Source: Rhodocollybia butyracea (lineage: Eukaryota > Basidiomycota > Agaricomycetes > Agaricales > Omphalotaceae). From it: 48,296 bases of DNA. The stretch lies in assembly GCA_015501585.1 (NCBI GenBank), contig JADNRY010000442.1, forward strand, positions 1-48,296, written 5' to 3'. The notes under the pieces were generated by a model. The model searched no databases. It was given only the letters and a program-made list of their open reading frames with translations, and was not told the DNA's origin. Shown piece by piece: positions 4,516-41,403 of the stretch. Position 1 is the stretch's first letter, and each line of letters begins with the position of its first letter. The position numbers and the translations under genes were made by a program.

Positions 4516-5614
4516 ATTCTTCCAAGTCAATACCTGTCAACACCGTGTCTGTGCCTCATCCCCTGCCTCTTTGCCCGATTTGATCGCCTATTTGTTCTAG
4601 CGTGTCATTATCCGGGCAGGTGAGGGGCTCGACTGCAACAGTCCCTGTCTACCTTTCTTACTGAGTACCTACGCCGTCACATTCAAAGCTTTCAATTTCG
4701 AAACGGTAGCGCGCGCGCAGAAACCGCCGGATAACCCGGAACCCCTCGATGTTACAATATCAAAATCCGAATCTTCTGCTGGTAGACCGGTTCCCCTTAT
4801 GCTATGAATGTCGCCATGCCTAGGTCTCTACCGTACAAAGGATGAATAGGTCGATTGAACTTGATTACAACGTTCAATTTTAGGAACATAAAGTCGGTAA
4901 AAAGTCGGGAGGTGCACATCTTGTTTCAGCCAATTACTTGGTACATGTCATATGGTCTTTCCTTATTGACCAAATCCCAGTTATAAGACAGAGACTATGC
5001 GCGATTTGGTAAGTATTCCTTCACCTTTACCAACCAATTGCTTCTCCCCAGGTTCGAATGGGATTGAGATCCTCAGATCCTCTCCCTGTTGGGTTCTGAG
5101 CTGAGTTGTTTATGTGACAATGTTGGCGGATTAATGTCGAAGGCTGGGAAGAAACTAGAGTGAGAAGAACCGGATGGGCGACTCAGAGATGAGACCCGCG
5201 GGTGTTCAGGCTTCAATGAAGACCAAGCACAACTAGTAGTAGAATGGCTAGTAGTACTACAACTTCATCGCACGGTCGGGAGACTTAACTTAGTTGAGCC
5301 CTTCCGATACCATCGTCAACGGTACTTGGCACGATCAAAGCCAAGAAACTAGCCTTGCGCACTTAGCACTTCGTGTTTTGGGCCTAGAGGGCTCAAACAG
5401 GTCTCGACCCTCATTCAACTTGAACCCACAAATTGAATACTTCGACCTCAATGAATCTTACACACTCGGACCATGCTGGCGCAACGTGCAACCATTTCAT
5501 GAGATACACAACTCGCCCTATGGTTGAGCTAGTTTTCGGATCCATCACACCAAGTTCGCGAACTTGAAGAACCCCTTCTGAATTACTCGAGCCTCATTAT
5601 AGAATTGTAAAAAT
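4516..5614. other. No gene recognised
   Basis: Intergenic. One 77-codon open frame at 5294-5527 has no recognisable motif and no splice context. Nothing else supported. Confidence 0.45.
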
Positions 5615-6930
5615 CTAGACATTCGGGGTTACTGAACTGGCTATGTGCACTGAAACCATCCCCTCTACTACAGATAACTCAAATTTCACTAAAATGTAGA
5701 CTGTAATAGGATACAATGCCTAAAACAAATTAGTATCGCCCATGCAACAAATGCCCTACATACCGAAAATGCAATCATGAAATTTGTCAGGTAAAAACTT
5801 GTCCTGAAAAGTAAGGTGTCGGTCTGGTTAGATTTTGTTGTGTCTTGCATACATTGAACCAATGTAAAAATCAACTACATCCCCAAGCAACATTAGCATG
5901 TGTTATTAATCAATCTAAGCGAGACGAACTCACCTGGAATGCGAAAAATATGACACCAGACTCTATCCAGAGAAGTAACACCCGTTGAGACTGGGTTAAC
6001 TTATGCACATGGTATTCTACACCCTCAATGCCTTGAATCTGCTGATGATATATCCTGTGGGAACAATACTATGAATGACTTCAGTACGATCATAAGTGGA
6101 ACCAGTACCAAGCCTTCAGGCCAAGTAGCAAATTTGTGATTACATTGATAGAAAGACTGGCCCAAAGTGAAAGAATATCCAGTGATGAGGAATTGGCGAG
6201 CTCCAGGACATCCCAAACTCCATCTACAACTTGGATTACTGGATTACATGGCGCTGAGAAACTAGTACACAAGCAAAAGAGCAAATGTTGTACATACCAA
6301 AGTTTCCAGTCATGAGAAGTATCATTACCGCTTTTGCCCGATTTTCAGTTCCCCACATAATGCATGCTCTCCACGTTACAATGGAATCACTCAGGATAAA
6401 CTGGAATCGGAGGATATCAAAAAACAGATCAGAAGTTAGCTATGCCAGATCACAGAGTCTACAGATCGGCACTACCATGATAGTAAGTGGTAAGCCGTGA
6501 ACTTTATTCCAGATTCGGGCAGAATTATTTGCCACTTCGACTTGTGATATGAGACCTTGACCGGTTTCCCGCATGCATGAGTAGAATATTAATTTTAGGT
6601 CGACTTCGATTGAAATTAACAAGTATAAAGTAAAAGCCATGAAGCCAATGAATATGCAAGTCAACCATATCTGCGGTTTGTTGCTTGAAATTCTGTATCT
6701 CATAATCAGGTTAAAGTAACGGCGGAACACAAGTTCCAATGTACTTACAGGTAGTATAAACATATTGAAGTGGCCAGTAAGTAGGAGCCTAGCCTCCAGC
6801 GTTTAAAATGACACAAAGCGAGGCTGTTCAATGACTCACCATATAAACAGGCAGTGGACAGAAGCTGAGAAACATCGAGGAATTGTGCGAGACCAATAGC
6901 GTAAAGAATGTCCGAATCATTCGGAGTCAT
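5615..6930 (-). CDS. Multi-span membrane protein of the Agaricomycete seven-TM hypothetical family
   Basis: Eight exons join in phase to 924 nt (about 307 residues): 6930-6840, 6788-6749, 6683-6476, 6400-6298, 6253-6109, 6054-5934, 5874-5764, 5719-5615. The product starts MTPNDSDILYAIGLAQF and has repeated hydrophobic helices, for example WLTCIFIGFMAFTLYLL. Hallmarks of this large basidiomycete family are SDSIVTWRACIMWG (exon 4), a SLWASLSINVITNLLLGLKAW helix split between exons 5 and 6, and LLLWIESGVIFFAFQ (exon 6). The family is thought to be receptor-like, but no ligand or role is established. The acceptor of exon 5 is ambiguous (6253 or about 15 bases later); both keep frame. Start chosen as the only upstream ATG in frame. 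Second member of this general class in the window besides 46343-47509. Confidence 0.78.
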
Positions 6931-12248: not shown

Positions 12249-15200
12249 TTATTTGCCCTCAACGCCTTTGTCAACGGTAAACTGAATCGCATCAACAGCT
12301 GGACGAGTTCGCAAATAACTATACTCAAAAAGTCAATCCGCGTATAGAACTCTTTTGTGCGAGACCACACTTACTATAACCCCGTCTTCAGGCCTTTCTG
12401 CCATCCGTAAAAGTGCATCGCAGTCTAATCATCCATAATCAGTCAAAAAAGATATCGTGTAAAAACCGACTCACCAACTGCTTCACCGATGGCTTAGCCA
12501 AAAATATATTAAGTGACTGGCTCCCGCAAATGAATGCTCCACGGTCAGCAGATAGATCAATGATACAGCGCTGGGAGATCTCCCAGACTGTCTTATAGAT
12601 AGATTTGACATCGTCAGGAATCTCCGGAATATTCTGCACCGAGCCACCATTTAAGATGAGCTTATTCTTCATGCGCTCGTCCCACAGGTTGAGGGCCACG
12701 AGCTCCTTGATGAGCCATGGACAGATGACTTGGAAATCACCTGCGGCGACACGACGCGTATACACGTTACTGTGAATCGAGTTCAAGCCAGAAAGTAATA
12801 ACAACGCAGAATAACTCACGTTGTGTAGGGCTCGAAGCACTCGTTGTTCGATAGTATATGACTAGTTGACACTGTGGGGGGCAACGCGACAAGGAGAGAG
12901 TTCCTCAAGCCTTTTTCAGCAATACGCGCCTTCAACCCAACCCACTCCCACAGAGGGCTGGGCGTAACACCCCAAAAGTCATACTGCAGCTGACCTCGCT
13001 GGGCAGGACTTCCTTCCCAGGTTTCATACGGCCCGTAACGCTCTGCAAGCTCAACACTAGCTTCGAGCGCACCGTGATAGATAGTCTCAAAAATCTGGAG
13101 GTTAAGCATCCGCGCTTCCTTTGACTCAAACGGCAGGCGGAGGCACATGAACACATCCGCGAGACCTTGCACACCCATACCGAGGGGTCTATGCCGCAAG
13201 TTCGAGTAGCGCGCAGCGGGGACGGGATAGTAGTTCACGTCAATTTGACGATCGAGGTTTTTGACAAACACTTTCGTGATGGCATGGAGCTTGGGAAAGT
13301 CGAATTGACTGTTGTGGATAAAGGCCGGAAGGGCGAGGGTACCGCAGGTGCAGACGGCTACTTCGTCTGGGGCAGAGTATTGGATAATCTCCGTACAGAG
13401 GTTGCTACTGAGGATAGTGCCTAAGTTTTTCTGGTTCGATTTGACTACGAACACAAATATAAGATGCAATATATATATAAGGGATGAAGGAGCTTACTAT
13501 TGGCTGGGTCTTTGTACAGCATAAACGGCCCTCCTGTCTCAATCTGAGCGGTGACGATGGCTACCCATAATTTTGACGACGGAATGACACGTCTGGCGCG
13601 TCCCTCACGCTCATAGCGTTCGTATAGCTCCTCGAATTCGGCGCCATAAACCTTGTTGAGCCCTGGAGCTTCACTAGGACAGAATAAGCTCCATTCTGCT
13701 TCCGCCTGAACTCGTTTCATACTAGTATACCATTGAGGAACCGAGAACCAGGATATTCCAACAAGGAATCACTCACAATAGGTCCGGAATCCACAGCGAG
13801 CAGAATAAGTCCCGCGCGCGCATCTCTTCTTTGCCATTGTTCTTCCGAATGTCTAGGAAATCGAAGATATCGGCATGCCAGGGCTCGAGAAACATGTTGA
13901 ATGCTCCACGTCGCTTGCCAGCGCCTTGATCTACATAACGAGACGTTGCGTCAAAGGTTCGCAACATAGGCACTAGCCCTGCGTCTCGCCCATGTGACTC
14001 AGGAATATAAGAGCTATAACGTCGATAGTAATACAGAGTAAGTGAAACTCGTCGTCACAAAAAGAACGCAGAGAATTTCTTTTCACTTACCCTCTGGCTC
14101 TATGATTGGAGATGCTCACAGCAGCTCCAGACGCATGGCGCGAGATGTGAGCACACGCCGTCAACGTTTCAAAAACCCCACCAACAGAATCATCTCGCAT
14201 ACACGTCAAATAGCAATTACACACTTGTGGGTGAGTGGTCCCAGCGTTGAAAAGCGTCGCCGATGAATGGGTGTAGTATTTTTGACTCATGAGGTCGTAT
14301 GTCTCCAGGGCCTGTTCGAGATCATCACCGTGAGTACCTACAGCGACACGCATGAGGAGGTGTTGGGGGCGTTCAGCGACTTTTCCGTCCATTCGGAGAA
14401 GGTAGGAGTGCTCGAGAGTCTTGAACCCGAAACTTTGTTGTTTGGGCGATATGTCAATTCAGGAGGTCGAGCTAGACATATGGAACACTTACTATTGGTA
14501 TTCGAAGTCCCTCGAATGATCAATAGCATTGTCAAGCGCGTCTTTGTGCTTCATGACATTCGCGAGGAAATCTTTGGAGACCATCGGAGCGGCGGTACCT
14601 CCGGTGTTTGGTTGGACTAGTTGAACATGAGAAGCGTGTTGGGGAAGAGATGGACTAGGATGAAATAACATACCATAAGCATGCAAATCCTGCATAACAT
14701 CACTGAATCGCTCTTTGGTCTCTCTGTGTAACTTAGCGACGGCAATGCGAGCGGCGAGAGCGGCGTAGTCCGGATGTTTGGTGGTCAGATAAGCCGCAGT
14801 CTCGGCGGCGAGGTTCTATTCTCTGTGTTAGACGAAGGCCACTTTGGGTAAACTGTACAAACGTCGATCTCGGACGCCGTCATCCCGGGGCACAGACCAG
14901 CAATTGTTTTGTTGATAACCCTCAGAGAAGAATCAGGTTAGGTCGCATCATATCAGATAGGAAATAATCTTACTCGTTGGGATCGACAAAGTTGAGGTTC
15001 AGTCCTTGGCATGCCTAAAGAGGACACTGTGTTCATTGAAATACCACCTAAAGATTCGCCTAACCTGTGTGATTTTCTCTCTAAGCTGAAGTTCGGTAAG
15101 ATGTAGTATCTTTGAGGGAACAGTATACAATAGGTACCTCTGCAATGTCGGTTTTGACGTCCCGCTTGACACTGTTCAATGACAGACCAGTAGGTGCACA

Positions 15201-17155: not shown

Positions 17156-18600
17156 ATGAGTCAACCGGCGCAATCCACCGTCCACCTAGGCGTCCTCTTC
17201 CAAAGAACTATAAGGTACACAGCTCCAAGCTCAAATCCTGTAGAACACAACCTCTCATTGGCCATGGCTGAACGTTTTGCGGGTGATATCCACTGTCAAG
17301 AGCACGACGAGCCCTTGCTCAAAGAATCCGTGAACCGATTTGTATTGTTTCCCATCAAATTCCCTGAGGTATCGCATTCCTTCGTCGTGCTTTATAGACA
17401 CCTAACAAATCGATAGATATGGGCCATGTACAAGAAAGGTAGCTTGGGTTAATGCTCTCATATCCTTGGCTGACGCTTCACAGCCCAGGCATCGTTCTGG
17501 ACAGCTGAAGAAATAGATCTCAAGAACGATCTTGGCGACTGGAACTCTCTGACGCCCGATGAACGCCACTTCCTCTCGCACATCCTCGCGTTTTTCGCTG
17601 CCTCAGATGGCATTGTCAACGAAAACCTCGTCGAGCGTTTCAGTAGCGAAGTCCAGTCCGCAGAAGCTCGTTGCTTTTATGGGTACCAGATCATGATGGA
17701 GAATATCCACTCCGAGACCTACTCGCTGCTCATCGACACATACATCGAGGACGTGGCCGAACGCGACAAGCTCTTTGCTGCTATTGAGAGTATCCCTTGT
17801 ATCAAGAAAAAGGCTGATTGGGCACGCGTATGGATCAGCGACAAGGACTCGACCTTCGGAGAACGTCTCGTTGCCTTCGCCGCGATAGAAGGCATATTCT
17901 TCTCTGGCGCATTCGCCAGTATCTTCTGGGTGAAGAAGCGAGGGCGCATGCCTGGCCTCACATTCTCGAACGAACTGATCAGTAGGGATGAGGGTTTGCA
18001 CACCGATTTTGCATGTGTTCTCTTCCGCCATCTTCGCCGGAGACCACACCCTGATGTAGTGAAGAGAATCATCACAGAGGCTGTAAGAATCGAGGAAGAG
18101 TTCCTCACCGGTACGCCTCTCATTTTCTGCTGTATCGCTTTCCTCATAATATTGCGTTTTCTGGTAGTCGCCCTTCCTGTTGCGCTGATCGGGATGAATG
18201 CGGACTTGATGAAACAGTACATCGAGTTTGTAGCAGACAGGCTACTTGTAGAACTTGGCAGCCCAAAGGTTTACAACGTCGAAAATCCGGTGGGAGATAC
18301 AAAATGATGACTTGCTGATGATCTTACTTTGCTAACTTTTTGTTCACAGTTTGACTTCATGGATATGATCTCCCTTCAAGGTATGTTATGTACTGTGACA
18401 CACAACAAGTGAACCTCATTTTTTCCTAAAGGAAAGTCAAATTTCTTCGAGCGTCAAGTGAGCGAGTACTCGCGCGCCGGGTTCTCGACAGAACCCAAAC
18501 AAGAACCATTGTTCTCTGTTTCTGGGTTCGTATCCAATATACGGAGTTATCGCTAGATCTGATTTCTGCTCCCTTTAGTGCGTTTGAGGAAGACTTTTAG
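17156..18600 (+). CDS. RNR2: Ribonucleoside-diphosphate reductase small (beta, R2) subunit
   Basis: Diiron-tyrosyl radical subunit of class Ia RNR. Seven exons join exactly in phase to 1131 nt (376 residues): 17156-17368, 17417-17438 (22 nt), 17484-18110, 18168-18289, 18350-18380, 18432-18525, 18579-18600. Iron ligands and radical site are all visible: Asp in WTAEEIDL, Glu and His in ENIHSE, the radical Tyr in HSETYSLL, Glu in AIEGIFF, Glu and His in RDEGLH. The R2 signature [16 protein letters not shown] and the subunit-contact tail ending AFEEDF are present. It looks fully functional. Length and introns are typical of a fungal gene, which argues against a viral or bacterial origin. An ATG at 17263 is a possible alternative start; 17156 was kept because the frame is open and the usual variable N terminus is expected. 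Confidence 0.94.
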
Positions 18601-29722: not shown

Positions 29723-30540
29723 ACCAGAATGCCCAAGGCAATCAAGAAAATTCAGGACTCGAAGCTCAAAGCAAAACCCCCGGGTATTGGATATCGACGC
29801 GTATGGTATACAGTGTTGGGTGTTTGACCGGCTCAATCTTGCTGCTAGGAGAAGCAGCAGAGACCCCGCTTCTAAAATTTGTGTGGCTCTTGTCGAGTCT
29901 TGTATGAATGTTGCAACATTGAACAGGTTTTGTACTAAGCAATGAGTCTTGCAGTGAGGGATACAAGGGTCAGATAAAGAAAGATCTCAGTAGCGAATAC
30001 AATGAATTGACTTGGACTGGAGCTGCCTTGCGTCGCTGAGGTCTCCGAAATCGAAGTGAGGAGTAGGCACTGTAGAATGAAATCCTATCCCTTGAAATCT
30101 AGTTGAACCCGGGCCGCCGTTCTTTTCTCCAGGGACTCTTGGTCTCAAGCTTGATCTCTTTCACTGTAATTAGCACCGTGTTTGAAGCTTTGACCCAGTC
30201 TACTATCGCAAAGCAGATGGCTATATTAGTATCTATCTCTGATAATCCAGGTGCAACTGCTGGATGCAGTTCAATGCGTCTCCCCCGTGTTCTACCACTC
30301 TCCTGCCAAACGGAAACTCACTCCCGTTCAAGATGCGAACTTGATATCCGCGCGCGGTTATCTGAATCAATGGCTGCTTCTGCTTCTAAATCGCCTGGCG
30401 GGCATACATGCACAATTACTTGTGACGATCCTCTTTTACTACGTCTTGTGCGCCTCTGCACCCTGCTAGCTAGTACTCATCGGCATGTATTTCAAGCTCC
30501 TTGTTCAGGTTTCCATGCCGTGTAATAAAATCTTTCTTCC
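29723..30540. other. No gene recognised
   Basis: A 140-codon open frame at 30103-30525 starts at TTG, has no recognisable motif and no introns; it is not supported as a gene. Confidence 0.4.
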
Positions 30541-30559
30541 TTCCTTGCTCAATGGTCAT

Positions 30560-31050
30560 TACTCTAATTCCGTCATAGATCGATCATCGATCGATTATGG
30601 GCACCTTTTGCTTCTTCATATCCGTATCCCTCATGCCGACAAACGAGCTATGTGATGTACTAATTAGGAAGGCAGGGCATCAATTTTTTCTTCCCTTTTT
30701 CGGTGCTTATTACCTTGGGAGCTATTTCTGTCCCTCGAATATCCACATTCCCAAAGTTGGAAACTCGTTGAATTTCTGTATACACATCTCCGGACGTCGA
30801 GTTATTCCGTGGAGATGGTCGGAAGACTGACAGCTGCATCTCAAGCTGTTATGACGTTACCAACAGCTTGAGTTAGCAAAAGAGGTGGGTCTGCAGCGAT
30901 TGGAAATTCTCCTGGGCCTCGGAGCGCTCTGCTGTTGCTTCTCGATGAAATCTTTTTTTCGGATGTGATAGAGTTTGGTCGTATAGCAACATCCCATGCC
31001 TTTGCGGCGTGTATATGTTATATGACCTCTTCAGCTAATATCTGTGATGC
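30560..31050 (+). repeat. Upstream copy of the micro-exon gene's 5' flank
   Basis: Roughly 490 bp very similar to 33225-33725, in the same orientation. Shared blocks include ttggaaactcgttgaatttc, ctgcatctcaagctgttatg, ggcctcggagcgctctgctg and tttgcggcgtgt. The similarity ends at gatgca, just where the downstream copy begins its coding sequence, so only the promoter and leader were duplicated or only they survived. Confidence 0.85.
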
Positions 31051-31253
31051 AAACTGCTAGCAGTACGCACCAAGGTAAAAGAGGTTTGTATGTACAATGT
31101 AACGATCTGGAAACGAGGGGCTCAAAGCAAAAAATGAAATGAAAAACAATAGAATCGGCATCATATGGATGTTCTGAGCAAGCATCTCAGTCAAAGAATA
31201 GGAATCGCTGAAAATGTGGGTGGAAAGGATGGAATGACACACTAATTAAGTAT

Positions 31254-32341
31254 TCAATCAAAATCATACCGGAACCCAAAAAATGGCTCTGGGTCCCTCC
31301 CATGCGGGAAATTAGCACCACCATGGACCGTAAACCCATTATTGAAATCCTTGCTAAGGGAAGCCCTTGCATGTGGGTCCCCATCATGAGGGAAATCCGC
31401 AACAAACTGACCATTAAACCCATCATCAAACCTCTGGTTGAAGATAACCCGAGTGTCCGGGCCGCCACCGCTATGGAAATCGGCAGCAATACTGCCAGTA
31501 AAACCGCTATCGAAACTCTTGCTAAGGGAAGCCTGAGCATGCGGGTCTCCGACGCTGGGGATATTGGCTGTGGCACTCCCGGTCCAGCCATCACCAAAAT
31601 CTGCGCTGAGACGAGCATGAGCCTGCTCGTAGTGAAAGGGGTCCCCGACACCTTTAGGAAAAATATCCACGGAGCGAGCACCAAGCTCCGCTTGCCCATG
31701 GTTGCCTATCGGTGCAACTACATTCACACCAATAGACACTTGTTGGCCATTGTGGTTTTGAGAACCACCGATATTAACATCCAAGGTTCCAGAGCCAACC
31801 AGAACTGAGGCACCAAGAGCGCCAGAAATAGCTTGTTCTCCGAGCTTTGGTACTCTTGCGTCCAGGGCTGCTCTGAGCGTCACAGGGTCGCCCCCTGACA
31901 CCCGTGCGGAGTAGTCTGTGTATTCCATATCTGAGCCAGAAAAGTGTTTGTCGGCCTTGTACTGCTCTTCAGCATAGGATGAGGTGCTCAAGAGAAGGGC
32001 TACACTGATTGTTGAAAGGGATAGGAAAGTGGAAGTGGCGCGTTCTGTGAGGGCAATAAGCAGAGAAACTGGGTGGATAGAGACTTAGATGCAAGTATAC
32101 AGGTCAGAGCTGGTTGTACTTACTAGAGCCGATTGAGATGAAGTATGAATCCACGGCAGAGGCGGAGACCAGAGTGGCCGTGCCAACAGCAGCCAGAAAC
32201 GCAACCCTTTGTAGCACTACAAAGACCAATTTCTATTAGTCAAGACCGGCATCATTTGCAGAAGGAAAGTTCCTTACTCGTTATGTGAGATTTGCAGCAG
32301 GGCAATGGCTTCCGCTTTTGCCAAAAATGTGCAAGGCTCAT
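31254..32341 (-). CDS. Glycine-rich beta-repeat protein with N-terminal membrane segments
   Basis: Exons 32341-32278, 32216-32124, 32068-31254 join exactly in phase to 972 nt (323 residues). The N-terminal third has two hydrophobic stretches (MLQRVAFLAAVGTATLVSAS and ISLLIALTERATSTFLSL..SVALLLS). The C-terminal half holds about four repeats of roughly 30 residues built on DPHAxASLSKxFDxGFTGSxAADF, for example GDPHAQASLSKSFDSGFTG and GDPHARASLSKDFNNGFTV, ending FGFRYDFD. The alternation suggests amphipathic beta hairpins, as in attacin-like or barrel proteins, but this is only resemblance. The second Met codon (MLQRVAF) is itself split A|TG by intron 1; if translation begins there, exon 1 is leader. 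Function unknown. Confidence 0.7.
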
Positions 32342-33720
32342 TTATACCAAACACCATAGTAGTGCTTAGTAGTACCGTAAAGTTAATTTTACATGAAACA
32401 TGAGGATCCACTGGATCGTATACTTAAAATGAAAAATGGTAACAAATGGTGCGGAGATGAAGAGAGTAACTTCCGCTTGACAGTGGCAGACTGTGCAAAT
32501 GTGATCCTAATTTCAAAGTGATCGCTAGCGGTATACTGTGCTTGATGATGTTCTTTTAGTGATTTGAATTCATGGCTCTCAGCCTCCAGGAGAAAGCCAT
32601 GAGTGACACGAGATCTGGAATTGCATGCAAGGCTTATTGAGGCTCATAACTTTCAGTGGCGCAGTATTATGACGGAAGACCTCTTTGCTTGATAGCGTCG
32701 AAAGGTTACAGCTCTTAGTTGTTCCTTCTATTGATCTCTACAGCTTTTGTGCTGTATAACAGTATAAAGTATTCACATACAAACTTGACGCTATCCTTGT
32801 GCTATCCTAATTAGGAAGCAGAGATCGAGGGTTTGGGTTTAATAACGCATAGTTTGTTCGAAGCCACGGCAAGCCTGAGGCCCAGGGCCCACAGCATTTT
32901 TTTATCCTTTCGTTCTACATGAAAGCTAACACCACATCTTTCCATGTATAAGATCACGTTGAGATGACCATGAGAAAAGTTTTGAAAACATCAATCTGCT
33001 GTCCTACTAGAAAGCAGAGACCAAGGGTTTGTATGTGATGATGCATAATTTGTTTGGAGCCACAGGAGTCTTCTATCTATTTGTGTTTTGCATGAACAAT
33101 GATAGTGAAAGAGTCCGAGATTTGTATCCTGTCGTTCCCGGGGTTGATCAATATGTTGCTTACACACTACTACGTCTGCTCTCTTTCAAGTTTCCATTCT
33201 TGGTTTGAGACAGTGGTTCGGTCATCGATCATCGATCAGTAGTCCTTCAATTATGGGCGCCTGTTTCTTCTTCATCTCCATATCCCCAATGCGCTGTGAG
33301 ATGTACTAATTAGTAGGACGGCAGGTTATTAACCTTAAGTTCTTTCCTTTTTCGGTGCTTATTCTCTTGTAAGCTTTTTCAGTCCCTAGAATACCCACAT
33401 TCAAATTCCCAAAGTTGGAAACTCGTTGAATTTCTGTATACACATCTTTACCATCTCTGGACGTCAAGTCAATGGTCATTCCGTAGGGACGGTCGGAAGA
33501 TTGATGGCTGCATCTCAAGCTGTTATGACACTACCAACAGCTCTAGTTGGCCAAAGAGGTGGGTCTGTGGCGATTAGGATTCGCAGTGGGCCTCGGAGCG
33601 CTCTGCTGTAGCCTCTCGGTGAACTCTTTTTTTAGATGTGATAGAGTTTAGTCAGTATAGCAATATCCCATGCTTTTGCGGCGTGTTTATGCTATATGTA
33701 CTCTTCAACTGATATCTGCG
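32342..33720. other. Upstream region of the micro-exon gene with local duplications
   Basis: No gene supported. The part 33225-33720 is the second copy of the 30560-31050 repeat and is the presumptive promoter and leader of the micro-exon gene. A smaller diverged pair lies at about 32800-32880 and 32997-33070 (both with agcagagaccaagggtttg-like and cataatttgtttggagccac-like blocks). An atcgatcatcgatca cluster is at about 33223-33238. Confidence 0.6.
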
Positions 33721-36700
33721 ATGCAGCCCCCCAGAGTCGGCGTCCTTACCATGTCTCAAAGTCCAGACTGTCCATTGGGATTGTTCTCAGGCGCACATAA
33801 TTTCCACATCGAAGGAAGTATCTTCCAAGTCGTTCATAACAACACAGGTGCGTACTGCTTTGGTGTCATTCTTGCTCACGAGCTGATAGTCGGTGACTTC
33901 TTCATGTTCAAAAAGCCGTATGTTCACTAGACCTTCGTACACGAAATGAACTGAACAATCTCACAGCATGCGTTCTATGTTAAAGGTCGTTTGTCATCCA
34001 GTGGTCCTCCTGACTATTATATCATAGGCTGTAAAATACTAGGAAGTCCAGGGGAGACTTCCTATGTTGTCAGGAGGTTTCGGCGGGAGGAAGACGGGGA
34101 TCGCTTTGAGTCATTGCTCCAGAAATTTGGGCAAGTTGCATAACTGTTCAAAGCTGTGATTGAATATTCCTCATAAAACTTTCAGATGGAGCACGTTCAC
34201 AGCAAAACCACTATGGAAGCTCACCGTGAATGGTGACCCGTGTTTGGCTGTCTCTGCTGCAGGTAATACTGAGCTGATCTTGTGTCCGAGTCACTAAAAC
34301 ATAGTCTGAAAAAGCTGTCTACACATGGAAAGAGATGATACGAGATCAAACAAATTTGGTTACAAAGTTTTTTCATCTAGTGAGTTTAGGTTTACCTCCC
34401 AGCGCTAGTCAGTTTCTACTAGTGCTCACACGTTAATAAAGCTCTTCAAGATCTCGGTAAGTCAAAAGCTGCCAGTAAGAATCTTGGAGTTGCACTAACA
34501 GAAAAGCCCAGTCATTTTTTATGGAAACGCCCCAAGTTTGTCCAGGAGACTGGATGTGGGCAGACCTTTGGGACAGTACCGGCCCATATTCCGACCTGAA
34601 ACTTTTTGATGAGAATGGAAATTTCATCATGGATGTGGAAATGCTGGAATCAAGGGGGTTGGTGTATCAAGAATACTCGGAATCCTTGGTAGGAATTGTC
34701 TATTGCTTATTCAAAAACATAAGCTGATGGGAAGCTGTTAGATAAATCAAGGAAAGGAGTTTTATGAAAATGCAACAAAGTTGATGAATGCAGCGACTGG
34801 GAGAATAGGTAAGTGTTGCAATTTTCTCAAGTTTCATTGAGAGCACATATTCCTTGCTAGGGAAAATCAATCTTGATAGATTTATAAATAGCCATATAAA
34901 AGCAGATCAAGTAAGTGAAAGAAGACCAATAATAAAGTACTTAGTAGTAAGTCGAACTAACCTTCACTTTGCAGGAAGTGAGTGCCAGCTCTAGCCTGCA
35001 ACTCAAGTATCTCATTTCCATTCAACTCTCATGCTCTTGTCACTCTCCAGTTTGTGAGTGCCGCCTTAGTGTTTACTTCCACTGACTCCTGTTCCTTGGC
35101 ATACTTGAATCTTCAGCTTGTGAGTTCCACATTACCCCCCTCTGATCACTGCCATCCACTGACTCTCATCCCTTGCCACTCTCTAGCGTGTGAGCCCGCC
35201 TGCAGTTGGCCTGCAGCCACCTCCATTCTTTCACTTCTGCTGACTCTTGTCCTCTTTTTCAGAATGTGAGTTGCTCTCCAGCCTCCAGTGTTTCATTTTG
35301 ACTCCTTCCCCTCCTCTTGCCACTTTCCAGGATGTGAGCCTTCTCCCAGTAACCAGTTCCAGTGTTCTCTTGCCACTTACTTCGATGCCTTGCCACTCAC
35401 CAGGATGTGAGCCTTCCACTACTCACCTCCAGTGGTACATTTCGGCTTACTTAAAACTTCCATGCCTTGCCACTCTTCAGGATGTGAGTCCAGCTCTACT
35501 ACCTCTGGGCTTTTGCTTCCACTGACTCCCACTCTCTCGTCACCTTTCCAGATTGTGAGTACCCCATGCAGCCATTTCCAGTCTTCTATCTTGACTGACA
35601 TCCATCCCTTACCACTCTTCAGCTGGTAAATTCCTCGTCAGCCACCATTAGTCCTTTATTTTCCTGACCTTCCACTGTCTCCTTGCCACTTTCTAGGCTG
35701 TGAGTCGCCATCAGTTACCTCGATGTTGTACTTGCACTAACTGCTGCCCCCTTGTCATTCTCCAGTTTGTGAGTCTCTATCAGCCAACTCCAGTATTTTA
35801 CTTTCCTTGACTTCTGCACCCTTACTACTTATGCTCAAGTCTGTGAGTCTTCCTCTGCCGTCATGATGTCACCTCCTCTTTCACTCGTTCTGAGATCCTT
35901 TTGCACCTCTTCAGGATGTGAGTCCTCTCCCGCCTCCAGGCTTTTACTTTTACTAATTTTCATCCCATGCCATTCTCCAGCTCGTGAGTACGCCCTCAGC
36001 AACCTTCAGCATGAATTCCCCTGACTTCTATCCCTTTGCTACCTCTAGCTTGTGAGTCTCCAGTCCTCCTGTCATCGATGTCCACTAACTGCCTCCAGCA
36101 TGTGAGCGCTCCGCCATCATCTCCAGTCCCTCAATTCCACTGACTTTCACCCACTTGCCAACTGCAGCATGTGAGTCCACCCCCACCCTCAGCTAACTCC
36201 AGAGTCCGGTGTTTTGATGCCACTGATGTTTACCCCAATAATATCAATGTCACTCTCCAGCTTGTGAGTCCGCACTCAGCTACCTCCTGACTCCAGATTT
36301 CACTTCTACATCAGGAAAAGCTGTTTTTGCCTAGGTGACCCCAGAGTGGCCTAAAGCAAACTAGGTGACCTATGAATCCTATGGCATCCTAGGAATTTGG
36401 GCTCATCCCTTGCCAGTCAAGGCTCTTGAGGATTCCCTAGGGTATCCTAGGCACACCCAGGGCAAGCCTAGGTTTGCCCAGGTTTGCCCAGGTGTTCCCC
36501 AGGTGTTCCCCAGGAGCACCTGGGCAAACCTAGGCTTGCCTAGGGAATCCTCAAGAGCCTTGACTGGCAAGGGACGAGCCCAAATTCCTAGGATGCCATA
36601 GGATTCATAGGTCACCTAGTTTGCTTTAGGCCACTCTGGGGTCACCTAGGCAAAAACAGCTTTTCCTGATGTACTAACTTGCATTCCGTGATCCTTTGCC

Positions 36701-38474
36701 ATGTTCCAGGTTGTGAGTTCCCTTAGGCACTTTAGCTTTTCACAAGTTCCACTGACCTCCATCTGGGATCCCCTTACCACTTTTCAGCCTGTAAGTCCCA
36801 CCTCATTCACCACTAGTCTTTGACTTGTGCTGACTTCTTTCCCCTTGCGACTCTCCAGGATGTGAGTGTCTCCTCATCCACTTGAGTACTTTTACTTACA
36901 TTGACCTCTATCCTCTTGCCACTCTGTAGTTTGTGAGTCCCTCTCAGTCAAGTTCAGCCGTTCAATTCCACTAAATTCCATTCTTCTCTCTAGGATGTCA
37001 GTCCCCTTCAGCTGCCTCTTGTCTTTTCTTGTTTTGACTAATTGCCATCCTCTTGTCACATTCTAGGATGTGAGTTCTCCTGGAGCCACTTTAGTCTATC
37101 ACTTCCACTGACTTGCATTGATCCTCTTGCGACACTGCAGTTTGTAAGTCCTAGCAACCTTCAGTCGTTGTTCAGTCATTCACTTGACACTGACTCCCAT
37201 CCTTCCCACTTTCCAGGATGTAAGTCTGCTCAGATACCCCCAGCCTCAGGTTTTCGCCTTTACTGACTTTGATCTTGACACTTTCCAGCATGTGAGTCCT
37301 CTGGCCTCCAGACTTTCACTTCTACTTATTTTCCCCTATACAGCTTGTGAGTCACGCCCTGTTGGGAAACCATTCACTTCCACTGAATTTCATCTCCTTG
37401 TCCCTTTCCAGTTCGTAAGTACTAGGTCCTGCACCCAGAGTCCTTTACATACACTGATGTCCATCCCCTTGACACTCTCTAGTTTGTGAGTCTACCCTCA
37501 ACCACCTCTTAGTCATTTACTAAGTACAATCTACTGACTTGTGTTCCCTGGCCACTTCCAGTTTGTGAGTCCCCTCTCAGCCACTTATGTTCTTCATAAG
37601 CTCCACTGACACAGTATACATCTTCTTGCTATACCTCTTTAGTTTGTGAGTCCACCAGGCACCCCCTTTGACTTTGACTACGGATTTTGAATCTTGATCC
37701 CCTGACAATTTCACCAGCTCGTGAGCACTGAGACTCCCCTCAACCACCTCCAACTCAACCATCTTCAACCTTTCACTTTTACTGACTTCCTTCCCCTTTG
37801 CCACTCTGCATTGCACAGAATGTGAGCCCTCCAACTTCAACCCTCTCTGCTATTTCACTTCCACTGAATTTTTTCCCCTTGTCACTTGCCGCAATCCAGG
37901 ATGTGAGTACTGCTTCGGCACTCAGCTGCTCCAGTCTGCGCTAACTTCCATGGACCACTCCCTCGCCACTCTCAAGCCAGTGAGTCCTCCGCAGACACCT
38001 ACGATCTTTCATTGATACTAATATATTATATCACCCCTTTCAATATAAGCCCACCAGAACCTATGATAGTCATCGATTCCAAGAAGTGGCCTCCGACCCC
38101 GACCCAAGCGCACAACCATTGAAAACTGGACTGGATACAATGCCTACTCCGAAAAACCAGAATGACCCCGGCTTCGTGGACCTTGGCCAGGGTCAAATTA
38201 AATTGATTATGCCTTCCAAGTCACTGTGTGGCAGCTATGGTCAGCAATATTTTCTTTATTTCCTTTTGTTCTTTGATCCTTATGCTAATGCTTAAACAAC
38301 TTTCATCCAGATTCATTATCTTCTCGGAAGGACTCCTATCCTCTTTCACCATCTACCCCGTCATCTACGGTGTCTTGCATTGACCAATTCATGACCGTTA
38401 TGCCTTCGTGGACATTGATTACCTGGCTGGCGTGTATACTCTGCTTGGTGGCTGCTATATACGTAGATCTCTAG
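33721..38474 (+). CDS. Micro-exon gene: tail-anchored protein with 37 single-codon exons
   Basis: Exons: 33721-33850, 33986-34130, 34186-34262, 34315-34379, 34442-34456 (15 nt), 34512-34688, 34742-34808, 34861-34910, then 37 exons of 3 nt (34975-37979, listed in the array entry), 38050-38239, 38311-38474. They total 1191 nt with one continuous frame, 396 residues. N terminus: SGAHNFHIEGSIFQVVHNNTG, a motif seen at the start of many Agaricomycete hypothetical proteins. Middle (exons 2-8): globular-looking, for example DYYIIGCKILGSPGETSYVV and FFMETPQVCPGDWMWADLWD; no family recognised. Then the array-encoded 37-residue acidic/aromatic segment, a polar Pro-rich linker (PTRTYDSHRFQEVASDPDP), and a C-terminal helix TLITWLACILCLVAAIYV two residues before the stop, i.e. 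a tail anchor. Intron 2 is GC-AG (GCAAGT). The junctions of exons 1-2 and 3-4 are the least certain; several AGs compete. Transcript evidence is absent, so the model is inference from phase consistency. Confidence 0.75.
34911..38049 (+). repeat. Tandem array of 38 introns separated by 37 three-nucleotide exons
   Basis: Micro-exons start at 34975, 35051, 35117, 35187, 35263, 35331, 35404, 35481, 35552, 35623, 35697, 35766, 35840, 35915, 35981, 36049, 36099, 36168, 36261, 36710, 36788, 36859, 36930, 36994, 37067, 37141, 37217, 37289, 37344, 37412, 37483, 37562, 37643, 37718, 37819, 37900, 37977. Each is preceded by a pyrimidine tract and AG, and followed by GTGAGT/GTGAGC (31 cases), GTAAGT (4), GTAAAT or GTCAGT. 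Introns are mostly 61-78 nt (extremes 47 and 98; one of 446 carries an inserted element). A CTGAC/CTAAC/CTGAT-like branch site usually lies 15-35 nt before the AG. Codons: GAT 9, TTT 7, CTT 4, CAT 3; 31 of 37 end in T. Products: 1-19 EFLRNDDDILAFSDLLHHL, 20-37 VPDFDDFDHLFFFFLNDP. Introns share a loose consensus (CAGCCACCTCCAGT early; CACTTCCACTGACT and CCCTTGCCACTCTCCAG late), so the array grew by tandem duplication of an intron-plus-codon unit. Confidence 0.85.
36309..36671. mobile_element. MITE with TA target duplication inside the micro-exon array
   Basis: A 363-bp near-perfect inverted repeat starting CATCAGGAAAAGCTGTTTTT and ending with its complement, flanked by TA at 36307-36308 and 36672-36673, as for Tc1/mariner-type elements. 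The arms of about 140 bp hold CCTAGG-rich sequence (GTCACCTAGG, TTCCTAGGAT); the left arm has one extra block near 36440-36460. The centre repeats tttgcccagg and tgttccccagg twice each. No coding capacity: the two open frames across it are the palindrome read from both sides. Removal restores a 79-nt or so intron with a TACTAAC branch site, the normal array unit. Confidence 0.88.
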
Positions 38475-38993
38475 GGATTCTAAGGGCATAACTATGTTGC
38501 TGTACCTGATACTGCACTTGATACTCAATCGGAAAAAGCGACAACCAAATCTTTCCCTCGGACTCAGCAGTACAAGGAACTTAGGAAAACAAGAACAATT
38601 ACCCTCTGCTTCTTTTCCCCGTGCATCGCACTCATACTCAATAAGGTCCGAGGGTGAAATCCGCACTTCAAACCTCCCAAGTCAAGTTGAACCCTCACAG
38701 CCATCACATATATAGCAACCCCAGATTAGCACAAGCCATTCCTTACCTCATTCAAAATCGGAAACCCGTTGCAAATGTGAATGCGTCGAGTCTTTCCAAT
38801 ATGGAATAGCTATGCTTACTCGGCATCTGACTAGATGTTTCAAGTCAAATATTGAACAGGAAGGAACAGGAAGGCCAAAGCTGCACATATAAGAGTTGAT
38901 TGCATATATTTGAGCTTATATGGAAAACTCACACAGCAATCTGCAAATAATACAAAGATATCTGCTGTATTCAATACATTTTCCACATCCCGT

Positions 38994-41403
38994 TTACAAC
39001 ATCCACGCAGCTTTCACAAGTGCTGCTGCCCGTTCCGCGACAATGTAAGTCGGTACCTGTGTATGTGCACTCGTAACAAAAGGCTACCGCCATCTTAAGC
39101 AAAACCGATAGCTCAAACCAAACAAAATATCAACTCACAAAAATAGACGCATCCACTACTCTCAGCCCTCCCACTCCCTTCACCTTCAAATCCGGATCAA
39201 CAACACCATAATCTGCGTCTTTCGCACTCATAGCCACCGTACCCACCAGATGCGCACTAGATCCAGAAGAGTCTCGGATATATGCGTCGAGGGTACTGTC
39301 GTCGGTACTTGTGGTAATATTGGCGAAAGGTCCAAATTGAGAGATGATATGGCCGTTCCAAGAGGGGGCTGTGAGATATTGGAACATAATTTGGATACCT
39401 TGTTTCATAGCGGCTATATCGAAGGGAGAGGTGTAGTATCCAGGATCGATGATAGGAGGGGCAAAGGGGCTGGTGCTGTTTATAGTTACCGAGCCACCTG
39501 CGAAGTCCGAACATGAGTGAGATAAAAGGTGACAGAAAACAAATACGTACGCGATGCGGGGCTAACCAATGCCAATGACAACGTCAGAAAATTGCCTGTA
39601 GCAGTAGCACCAAAGAATAATCCATTCTAAAAGCCCGAGAATGAGTCAGACATAATATGCTAGCGCATCGTACCAACCGAAGGAAACATCTCCAAATGCG
39701 GCGAATCCTCCCCCGATGCAGGATCGCCAAATGTGTCCGTCACGCTCTCATTGACCCTAAAAAACGCGATCTGATTGTTAGCAATATCCACCAACGGCCC
39801 TGTCCCTGTTTTATTAAACCGCGTATACTCTTCATTGAGCAATGTGGCATTGCGATTAAGGTTATCCAACGTTTTTCGTCGAATTGACCAGGAAAGGATT
39901 CGAAAATACCGGTTGGTCGCTGAGGTTCTGGCCTACACTAGGAAGATTGACGAGGGAGGTATACCGAGTCGCGAAAGAGTGGTAGAGTTGCCGATCCCGG
40001 AATTTAGAAGAATTTGCGGAGAGTTGACGACTCCGGCGGAAAGGATGATTTCTTTTGAGGCGTGGACTTGGAGAACGGGGCCTGATATATACGGATCATA
40101 TGAGTGGAAAATTCCAACCTGTTTAATCTAACTCGAACCAGTCCCCTGCTAGAGTTCACGGACACGGCTGATCTCAGTCATCAAAGTGTCCAAAAGAAAC
40201 GACTAGCTCGAGTCTATGTTTAATCGGACTTTTAGACATACCTTCAAGGTCCTGCGCCAATTCTACAGTGTGAAATGCAAATCCGGATGAAGGTTACTTG
40301 AAACGTCTGGAATAACCCGAGCCACGCGTGCATTGAGTAAAACGTGCAAATTGTCCCTCCGAATAAATTCAGATGCTAAATACGACGTCGCAGAGCTACT
40401 TCGACGGCCTTCGGTTGTCACGGTTTTTTGCAGCCAGCCTGTTTGAGAATTTACTCTTGAAATGATTTTGGAATCTATCACATCAATGTCACTCACCGAC
40501 TCCCAGAGGCTTACCTCCGTTCGTGTCTTCATTGTAGTGGAACACGCCCCCGAGCTCATGTGCAGCGTTGATTACTTTTGAATCGATGCTGAATGGGAAT
40601 CCCGGGAGACTAACGGCATTGATTCCTGTGAGACTGTGTACGGCGGGGTTGAATTCGCCGGTGGTGTTATGGTGGTCTGCAGGGGGCTCCCATTTTTCGT
40701 TCTGCAAGAAAGGAAAGTATAACGCAAACATAGCCCCATATTTTGAGTACTCACCAACGCAAGGAAAGGCTGGATATTATCCCAAGACCACCCGTCGTCT
40801 CCAGTTACCCTTGCCCAGCGGTCATAATCATCAGCAGATCCCCGGGTGTAGAACATTCCATCTTGCAAAAAAAGCACAACATTTACGCTGGAACCACAGA
40901 AACGTTTACTGGGGTACTCACTGACTGAACTCGATCCCCAAGGATAAACCCACGTGGAATAGAAGCAGGGCGGTTATTAAACCCACTTTGCAAGATGCTT
41001 GTGTAATTCCAGTCATATTGAGGTTTAATCGGAAACGCAAAGAAAGGTACATCAATTTCGAACGCATCAATGTTTCTAGGATACAGCTTGAGCTCGAGGA
41101 AGGCGATGAAGGAGCTGAGTGAAACATACGTTCCTCCGGCTTCGAGCACCAGCACTGAAAAATCTTTGTTCTCGGTGAGCCTATTTGCCAAAACATTTCC
41201 TGCTGTTCCTCCTGAAAGTGCGAATATCAGAATTTTGGGGGAACAGTTGGTTTTTGGGTATGCTTGCCTCCTATGATCACAAAGTCATATGTGCTTGATG
41301 GGAGATCACTAAAGCTGTTGTACACAGTGGCTGAGCAGAGCGAATTGAAGACTGTAAGACACCCGAAGGCTAAGATGAAGCGGAAGTTGAGCACTTTGAG
41401 CAT
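38994..41403 (-). CDS. GMC-family FAD oxidoreductase (CAZy AA3-like), secreted
   Basis: Glucose-methanol-choline oxidoreductase, such as aryl-alcohol oxidase/dehydrogenase types that supply H2O2 or oxidise alcohols. Exon 1 encodes a signal peptide (MLKVLNFRFILAFGCLTVF) and YDFVIIGG; a GC-AG intron (donor at about 41274) separates it from GTAGNVLANRL, completing the FAD-binding GxGxxG. Then VLVLEAGG, PQYDWNYTSI, NRPASIPRGFILGD, DGWSWDNIQPFL, GWLQKTVTTEGRRSSSATSYL, ILSAGVVNSPQILLNSGIGN, NLSDQPVF, AHLVGTVAMS with the catalytic His, LRVVDASIF and PFVTSAHTQ with the second active-site His, ending VKAAWML-stop. Between LGI and SLVNLPSVGQNLSDQP (about 39957-39963) one base is missing: frameshift by assembly error or inactivation. 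Substrate cannot be told. Confidence 0.87.

Follow-up and report, generated by a model that had tools for sequence, protein, structure and literature searches.

A predicted gene of the basidiomycete Rhodocollybia butyracea contains an unbroken run of 37 AG-NNN-GT units that we read as one-codon exons, probably spliced into a 37-residue segment of the encoded protein. The gene lies on the forward (+) strand of a stretch of 48,296 nucleotides (assembly GCA_015501585.1, contig JADNRY010000442.1, positions 1 to 48,296), hereafter the window, and its array of 38 introns and 37 predicted one-codon exons spans 34911..38049 between ordinary coding exons. The genome also holds a related but diverged gene, which we call C1283, where 36 such units share one reading frame with the remaining exons; this layout is therefore likely to be used and maintained and not an accident. 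A second, nearly identical copy of the window gene is called C515. We infer that the gene is transcribed and that the units are retained in its mRNA.

The unit array in the window gene

Over the full length of the window, AG-NNN-GT sites whose GT opens a donor-like hexamer number 46 on the + strand and 9 on the - strand. Of the + strand sites, 37 form an unbroken run at 34973-37975, while the remaining nine are scattered outside it, confirming the 37 units that an earlier sequence-only reading had placed between the donor at 34911 and the acceptor ending at 38049. The spacing of mostly 61-78 nt given by that reading was about right, as unit-to-unit distances are 50-101 nt everywhere except across a 365-bp insert; 37 of the 38 introns are accordingly 47-98 nt long, and one is 446 nt. 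The gap from AG to GT is 3 nt in all 37 units. The donors are GTGAGT (25), GTGAGC (6), GTAAGT (5), GTAAAT (1) and GTCAGT (1), so that 36 of 38 match the consensus GTRAGY. A branch-like CTNAY had been said to precede each AG. Counted within the last 50 but outside the last 8 nt of each intron, the motif is present in 33 of 38 window introns (shuffled mean 15.6) and in 28 of 37 C1283 introns (14.7), that is, in most introns but not in all.

All of the units lie on the + strand. Unit 1 is GAA (E, 34975..34977) and is without a counterpart in C1283. Units 2 to 9 are TTT (F, 35051..35053), CTT (L, 35117..35119), CGT (R, 35187..35189), AAT (N, 35263..35265), GAT (D, 35331..35333), GAT (D, 35404..35406), GAT (D, 35481..35483) and ATT (I, 35552..35554). 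They are followed by unit 10, CTG (L, 35623..35625), which has the weak donor GTAAAT, unit 11, GCT (A, 35697..35699), and unit 12, TTT (F, 35766..35768), which is TCT (S) in C515. Units 13 to 19 read TCT (S, 35840..35842), GAT (D, 35915..35917), CTC (L, 35981..35983), CTT (L, 36049..36051), CAT (H, 36099..36101), CAT (H, 36168..36170) and CTT (L, 36261..36263). Beyond the intron that carries the insert come units 20 to 23, GTT (V, 36710..36712), CCT (P, 36788..36790), GAT (D, 36859..36861) and TTT (F, 36930..36932), and unit 24, GAT (D, 36994..36996), with the donor GTCAGT. Units 25 to 29 are GAT (D, 37067..37069), TTT (F, 37141..37143), GAT (D, 37217..37219), CAT (H, 37289..37291) and CTT (L, 37344..37346), and unit 30 is TTC (F, 37412..37414), whose donor is GTAAGT here and GTACTA in C515. 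The run closes with units 31 to 37: TTT (F, 37483..37485), TTT (F, 37562..37564), TTT (F, 37643..37645), CTC (L, 37718..37720), AAT (N, 37819..37821), GAT (D, 37900..37902) and CCA (P, 37977..37979).

The array is entered and left in phase 0, as had been claimed: the last ordinary exon upstream (34861..34910, +, 50 nt, as in C1283) ends in phase 0, and the first one downstream (38050..38239, +), which has a homologous exon in C1283, starts in it. Every one of the 37 units fits the reading frame, and the hand-joined exons remain open from 33967 to the stop codon. This amounts to 359 codons plus stop; the open joined frame of the sequence-only reading thus stands, while its count of 396 codons could not be confirmed, since the first coding exon, if joined from its obvious donor, is out of phase with the next. 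The units contribute 37 of the 359 codons, about a tenth of the predicted protein, and the predicted coding share of the array is 111 of 3139 nt. Straight translation of the block meets 38-54 stops per frame, and coding without splicing was rejected on these grounds. A simple tandem repeat was likewise rejected, as Tandem Repeats Finder (TRF) marked only two short places in the block.

The regularity of the array was also apparent to a parser that scores donor and acceptor positions alone, is free to set exon length within 1-30 nt and intron length within 40-130 nt, and pays a penalty for longer introns. In the window block it took 3 nt for 36 of 41 exons; four of the five exceptions lie within the 365-bp insert, and the fifth replaces the unit with the weak GTAAAT donor. 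In each of 30 dinucleotide-resampled blocks, the same parser took at most one 3-nt exon. Since its site weights were trained on the window only, the window parse is partly circular and the C1283 paralogue serves as the independent test. There, the parser took 3 nt for 35 of 37 exons, and the other two were inside a mobile element.

A paralogue, a second copy and a relic

The C1283 gene has the same exons on either side of its array; across six pairs of exons, 108 of the 218 residues aligned are identical. The lengths of four exons (77, 15, 177 and 50 nt) are equal in the two genes, and both encode a hydrophobic stretch near the C-terminus. The C1283 block is 3081 nt long and holds 36 units, one of which (donor GCGAGT, L015 6718) was added by hand, the parser being unable to take GC. 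Its hand-joined frame is open for 351 codons, with phases that match those of the window gene.

The array peptides predicted from the two genes, EFLRNDDDILAFSDLLHHLVPDFDDFDHLFFFFLNDP in the window and FLDIGDLDDVLRDLLVLDIGDPDDFDLLLDLGILDV in C1283, are related in sequence. When they were matched without gaps and anchored at the 3' end, 13 of 36 residues were identical, with 5.8 expected from shuffling (p 0.00076; p 0.004 when the best of ten offsets is allowed), and the 5'-anchored offset gave 6 of 36. Broken down by codon position, identities between the paralogues number 18, 18 and 28 of 36, against expectations of 10.9, 13.9 and 27.8, respectively. The introns on the colinear diagonal show neither an excess of similarity nor a correlation in length. 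That codon order is kept while the introns bear no colinear trace fits translated codons; a weaker explanation is that bases constrained by splicing have changed slowly.

The codons themselves are strongly biased. Over the 73 units of the two arrays the third base is T in 63, C in 5, G in 3 and A in 2. A third-base T is thus far more frequent in the units (63/73) than among flanking-exon codons for these amino acids (109/310, p 9e-16), and the ratio of T to C is shifted in the same way (63:5 in the units versus 109:77 in the flanking exons, p 5e-8). For aspartate, all 21 unit codons are GAT, while the flanking exons use 21 GAT and 19 GAC. The residues encoded in both arrays are mainly D (21), L (18) and F (10), and no stop codon occurs among the 73 units. 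T or C in the third position rules out stop codons; that T is favoured over C points to a role in splicing, which the T before the donor probably serves too. A variant U1 matching this T was sought with RF00003 in the genome, and no U1 was found among the 41 of 1567 candidates scored.

Pattern searches covered the window's own genome (95.6 Mb, 1381 contigs). A triple GTGAGT pattern gave 13 matches, six in the window, six in C515 and one in C1283, while its backward control gave 0. Where C515 and the window could be aligned, they are 98.6-99.5% identical, and from this identity C515 is probably the other haplotype. Over 33480-38800 the two differ by 18 substitutions, none of which falls in a GT (0/76), an AG (0/76), donor positions +3 to +6 (0/152) or the position before AG (0/38). 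Nine fall among 2321 other intron positions, one among 1065 positions of ordinary exons (as then drawn), seven among 1117 positions elsewhere and one among the 111 micro-exon positions, the last changing Phe to Ser in unit 12. C515 also carries small indels relative to the window, and every GT and AG is kept.

The insert in the window (36307..36671, +) is a 365-bp, TA-flanked, nearly perfect foldback (from a fold of 36263-36707) that resembles a miniature inverted-repeat transposable element (MITE) and sits in intron 20. As it is absent from C515, the 446-nt intron of the window can be explained as a MITE-like insertion into an intron of 81 nt. C1283 has an insert of its own, about 600 bp long (L015 about 5561-6162), which is flanked by an 8-bp target duplication (CACTTACT) and which we take to be a hAT-like element. 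These different mobile elements occupy the same colinear intron, between units 19 and 20 in the window and between units 18 and 19 in C1283, a coincidence with a chance of about 1 in 37. An element of about 604 bp, absent from the window, is present in C515 (L014 about 699-1302, corresponding to about 31502 in the window); its terminal repeats (TAGTGATGTGCGGGC) resemble the ones that bound the C1283 insert, and it has an 8-bp duplication (CCAGTAAA).

Outside this gene family, the genome pattern searches yielded one relic. The C486 fragment (L032 7162-7500) has about five readable units, one of which was found by the pair pattern, with the donors ATGAGT, GTTTGT, GTGACT, GTGAGT and GTGAGT; three of the five are off GTRAGY, and one of these is without GT. 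No exon of the array gene was found in the 20 kb around it. We read C486 as a detached and partly decayed array relic, but it lends weak support to one-codon exons because the contrast in donor loss is slight (3/5 off consensus, versus 9/37 in C1283). The pair pattern gave 75 matches in all and 223 in its backward control, and since the control outnumbers the matches, single pairs are meaningless. Of the 75, 34 are in C764, C515, C1283 and one C486 unit. No array was present at C1291 or C795, the two that were opened of the 41 other pair matches, the rest having been judged by their printed letters. A triple GTAAGT pattern had no match in the genome, and no relative was found among viral contigs.

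Splicing of the array and competing explanations

Support that is independent of the window, from the C1283 array, the colinear peptide and the second copy C515, strengthens the earlier proposal of one gene with one-codon exons. That splicing must proceed by intron definition in a strict or sequential order, as the same reading held, is plausible. In the mechanism that we propose, each intron of 47-98 nt would be recognised whole, by intron definition. With just 3 nt between an acceptor and the donor that follows, there would scarcely be room for spliceosomes on two adjacent introns at a time, which would lead to the removal of the introns one by one, most simply from 5' to 3' and during transcription. 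Each splicing step would add one codon to the upstream exon, so that the next donor would then end a long exon, and an acidic and hydrophobic segment of 36-37 residues would grow by one residue per step. This predicted D/L/F-rich segment likely joins an N-terminal domain to a C-terminus that is hydrophobic and may serve as a membrane anchor. Skipping of a unit would remove one residue without ever shifting the frame, and the array would in this way tolerate errors; unit 30 of C515, with its spoiled donor, would be a natural case of such skipping.

Several observations weigh against one-codon exons as we have proposed them. The donor of unit 30 has changed from GTAAGT to GTACTA in C515 through a 4-bp deletion (window 37415-37418), which keeps the GT and loses the consensus. 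In C1283, 28 of 37 donors fit GTRAGY and nine do not, one of these being GC, and that array may be partly decayed. The rate of substitution in micro-exons between C515 and the window (1/111) is not below that of other intron positions (9/2321), though the numbers are too small for much to be read from them. A gapped alignment makes the peptide match weaker (p 0.026), identity at the second codon position barely exceeds expectation (18 versus 13.9), and the narrow codon set, dominated by GAT, CTT and TTT, could be explained by splicing constraints alone. Finally, no full-length relative appeared among 1526 protein-search candidates, the query having lacked the 15-nt exon and contained a few wrong residues at exon joints, and both of the nearest protein models, from Gymnopus, end upstream of the expected start of the array.

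Four other explanations bear on these same observations. In recursive splicing an acceptor is immediately followed by a donor, and the recursive-splicing (RS) exon is absent from the mRNA. If the units were ratchet points of a similar kind, a 3.1-kb intron would be removed in bites of about 70 nt, and most of the codons would not reach the mature mRNA. The AG, GT and 3-nt spacing kept in both genes would suit such points, as would a narrow, possibly splicing-friendly codon set with T before the donor. However, codons are colinear between the paralogues (13/36) and introns are not, and every unit is 3 nt long and phase-matched on both sides, which would be needless for a codon that is discarded; we therefore regard this explanation as improbable. 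A different possibility, which is rather unlikely but less so than the ratchet, is that the units form a combinatorial cassette, each one-codon exon being taken or skipped without frame shift or stop to give a variable segment. It agrees with the uniform length of the units (73/73 are 3 nt, with no stop codon), with the many equivalent acceptors that each donor faces, and with the loss of the unit 30 donor consensus in C515, which would cost a single residue. Set against it are the near-equal numbers of units (37 and 36) and their colinear positions, which suggest that most units are usually included. Were the exons freely included or skipped, the gene could give rise to a protein family with a tunable acidic and hydrophobic linker, an undescribed generator of diversity at the level of splicing, and we put this forward as a tentative idea.

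The introns of the window resemble one another well beyond shuffled sequence (mean score 6.4 versus -4.1), with neighbours no closer than others, while in C1283 the corresponding mean is 0.01 versus -4.0. Because the window introns are alike and little likeness is left in C1283, the array could have originated in an early wave of tandem duplications, after which the copies drifted independently. The same likeness, which suggests one ancestral unit or shared composition and signals, is also what would be expected if intron copies, introner-like or from tandem duplication, had piled up neutrally in a row, each tolerated at a cost of one codon, and the peptide had no function. Both sources of introns have been described, as the available excerpts of two papers relate (PMC4974935, PMC4457414), and the donor losses in C515 and C1283 point the same way. 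In C1283, though, most of the likeness between introns is gone, yet AG and GT, the 3-nt spacing and the colinear codons persist, which makes neutrality a poor prospect. Small RNAs of the small nucleolar RNA (snoRNA) type have lengths in the range of these introns of 47-98 nt, and each intron could in principle host one. An Rfam search of 30001-40000 (E up to 1) gave nine weak matches to microRNA precursors, all of them in the foldback insert; with no Rfam match in the introns outside it, this very improbable explanation was rejected. Taken against these alternatives, splicing of the units into the protein as one-codon exons remains the reading we prefer.

Known micro-exon genes and the surroundings of the array

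The sequence-only reading had also called the gene architecture new. This fits the literature that was searched, in which no run of 3-nt exons appears in open-access titles and the beginnings of abstracts among the matches listed. Introner-like elements are near-identical introns spread across many genes, whereas the units of the array have diverged from one another and GTGAGT triples are confined to this gene family. The remaining comparisons draw on excerpts of the papers cited. Introner-like elements and introns formed by tandem duplication do share with the array that related introns have multiplied in a genome (PMC4457414, PMC4974935), but in the array the copies are strung head to tail within a single gene and separated by one codon each.

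The micro-exon genes (MEGs) of Schistosoma are similar to the array in having many consecutive tiny exons, mostly multiples of three, that keep one frame and resist annotation (PMC10526429). They have 10-20 short exons, mostly of 15 bp and ranging over 6-81 bp (3-81 in the abstract), with introns of 0.1-5 kb (PMC10526429). Both arrays, with 37 and 36 serial exons that are all 3 nt long, share the serial short exons in multiples of three; they differ from MEGs in exon size and in their introns of 47-98 nt (barring inserts), which lie outside the MEG ranges, and no homology is claimed. Aphid bicycle genes and their relative megacycle are likewise dominated by micro-exons (PMC9168663). The former have about 17 exons, the internal ones almost all in phase 2, and megacycle encodes about 2000 residues with more than 100 micro-exons (PMC9168663). 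The introns of the array, in contrast, are in phase 0, with one codon per exon, and the aphid exons are far longer than 3 nt.

Plants are able to splice exons as small as 1 nt, and the 1-nt exon of VPS55 is adjoined by conserved GTRAGT donors, but the plant micro-exons described in these excerpts occur singly or as two adjacent ones (5 and 12 nt), not as dozens of 3 nt (PMC8831610, PMC11096116). For filamentous fungi, a paper of 2024 holds that no functional micro-exon had been reported earlier; its Xlr2 of Trichoderma resembles the array gene in being a fungal gene with a small exon, but it has one micro-exon only (PMC11121469). In Phanerochaete, P450 genes combine introns of 45-55 bp with scattered micro-exons, the shortest of 6 bp, unlike the run seen here (PMC1184071). 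A stwintron is an external intron one of whose splice elements is split by an internal intron (PMC8469720), while each unit of the array has a complete donor and acceptor with a codon between.

If the codons are retained, the spliceosome copes with dozens of successive acceptor-donor pairs placed 3 nt apart, and one natural gene provides a direct test of the limits of exon size, of intron definition and of splicing order. The array would then be a ruler for the order and accuracy of splicing, read 37 times per molecule. Protein searches placed the gene near two models of Gymnopus androsaceus JB14 (64% and 57% identity, covering 46-48% of the query) and a third protein (45% identity, covering 31%); the query partly shared the faults of the full-length one, at exon joints and in the 15-nt exon. 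Both Gymnopus models stop short of the array, which suggests that genes of this kind escape gene finders. The first model matched the window's own genome at best at 67% over 58 residues and at 80% over 30, which points to a species that is probably distinct from it and likely an agaric. A ribonucleotide reductase exon of the window matched other sequences at 83% identity at best among the 120 of 1983 hits listed. No Pfam family was found for the predicted array protein.

The ordinary exons, all on the + strand, begin with a probable first coding exon (GLFSGAHNFHIEGSIFQVVHNNT, 33751..33847), which has a homologous segment in C1283. It is followed by a coding exon that runs from HAFYVKGRL to LLQKFG (33967..34130) and ends at a GC donor, one of 77 nt as in C1283 (34186..34262), and one encoding VYTWKEMIRDQTNLVTKFFHL (34315..34379). 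The GC-AG intron at 34131, between two ordinary exons, has GT in C1283. A further very small exon, of 15 nt (34442..34456), stands outside the array; it encodes LFKIS (FLKVS in C1283) and has an AAG acceptor in both genes. An exon of 177 nt, again as in C1283 (34512..34688), and one encoding INQGKEFYENATKLMNAATGRI (34742..34808) complete the part upstream of the 50-nt exon at the array, and the last coding exon (38311..38474) encodes the hydrophobic segment and then the stop.

Directly upstream of the gene, a stretch at 33247-33725 is the second copy of a duplication of about 480 bp, the first being at 30591-31051; the two are 79.5% identical, and the duplicated stretch is perhaps a shared promoter. 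Farther away in the window, Pfam matches identify exons for the large and small subunits of ribonucleotide reductase, at 12816-13469 (-) and 17693-18307 (+), respectively. Both subunits so near each other are, to our knowledge, an unusual neighbourhood in a fungus.

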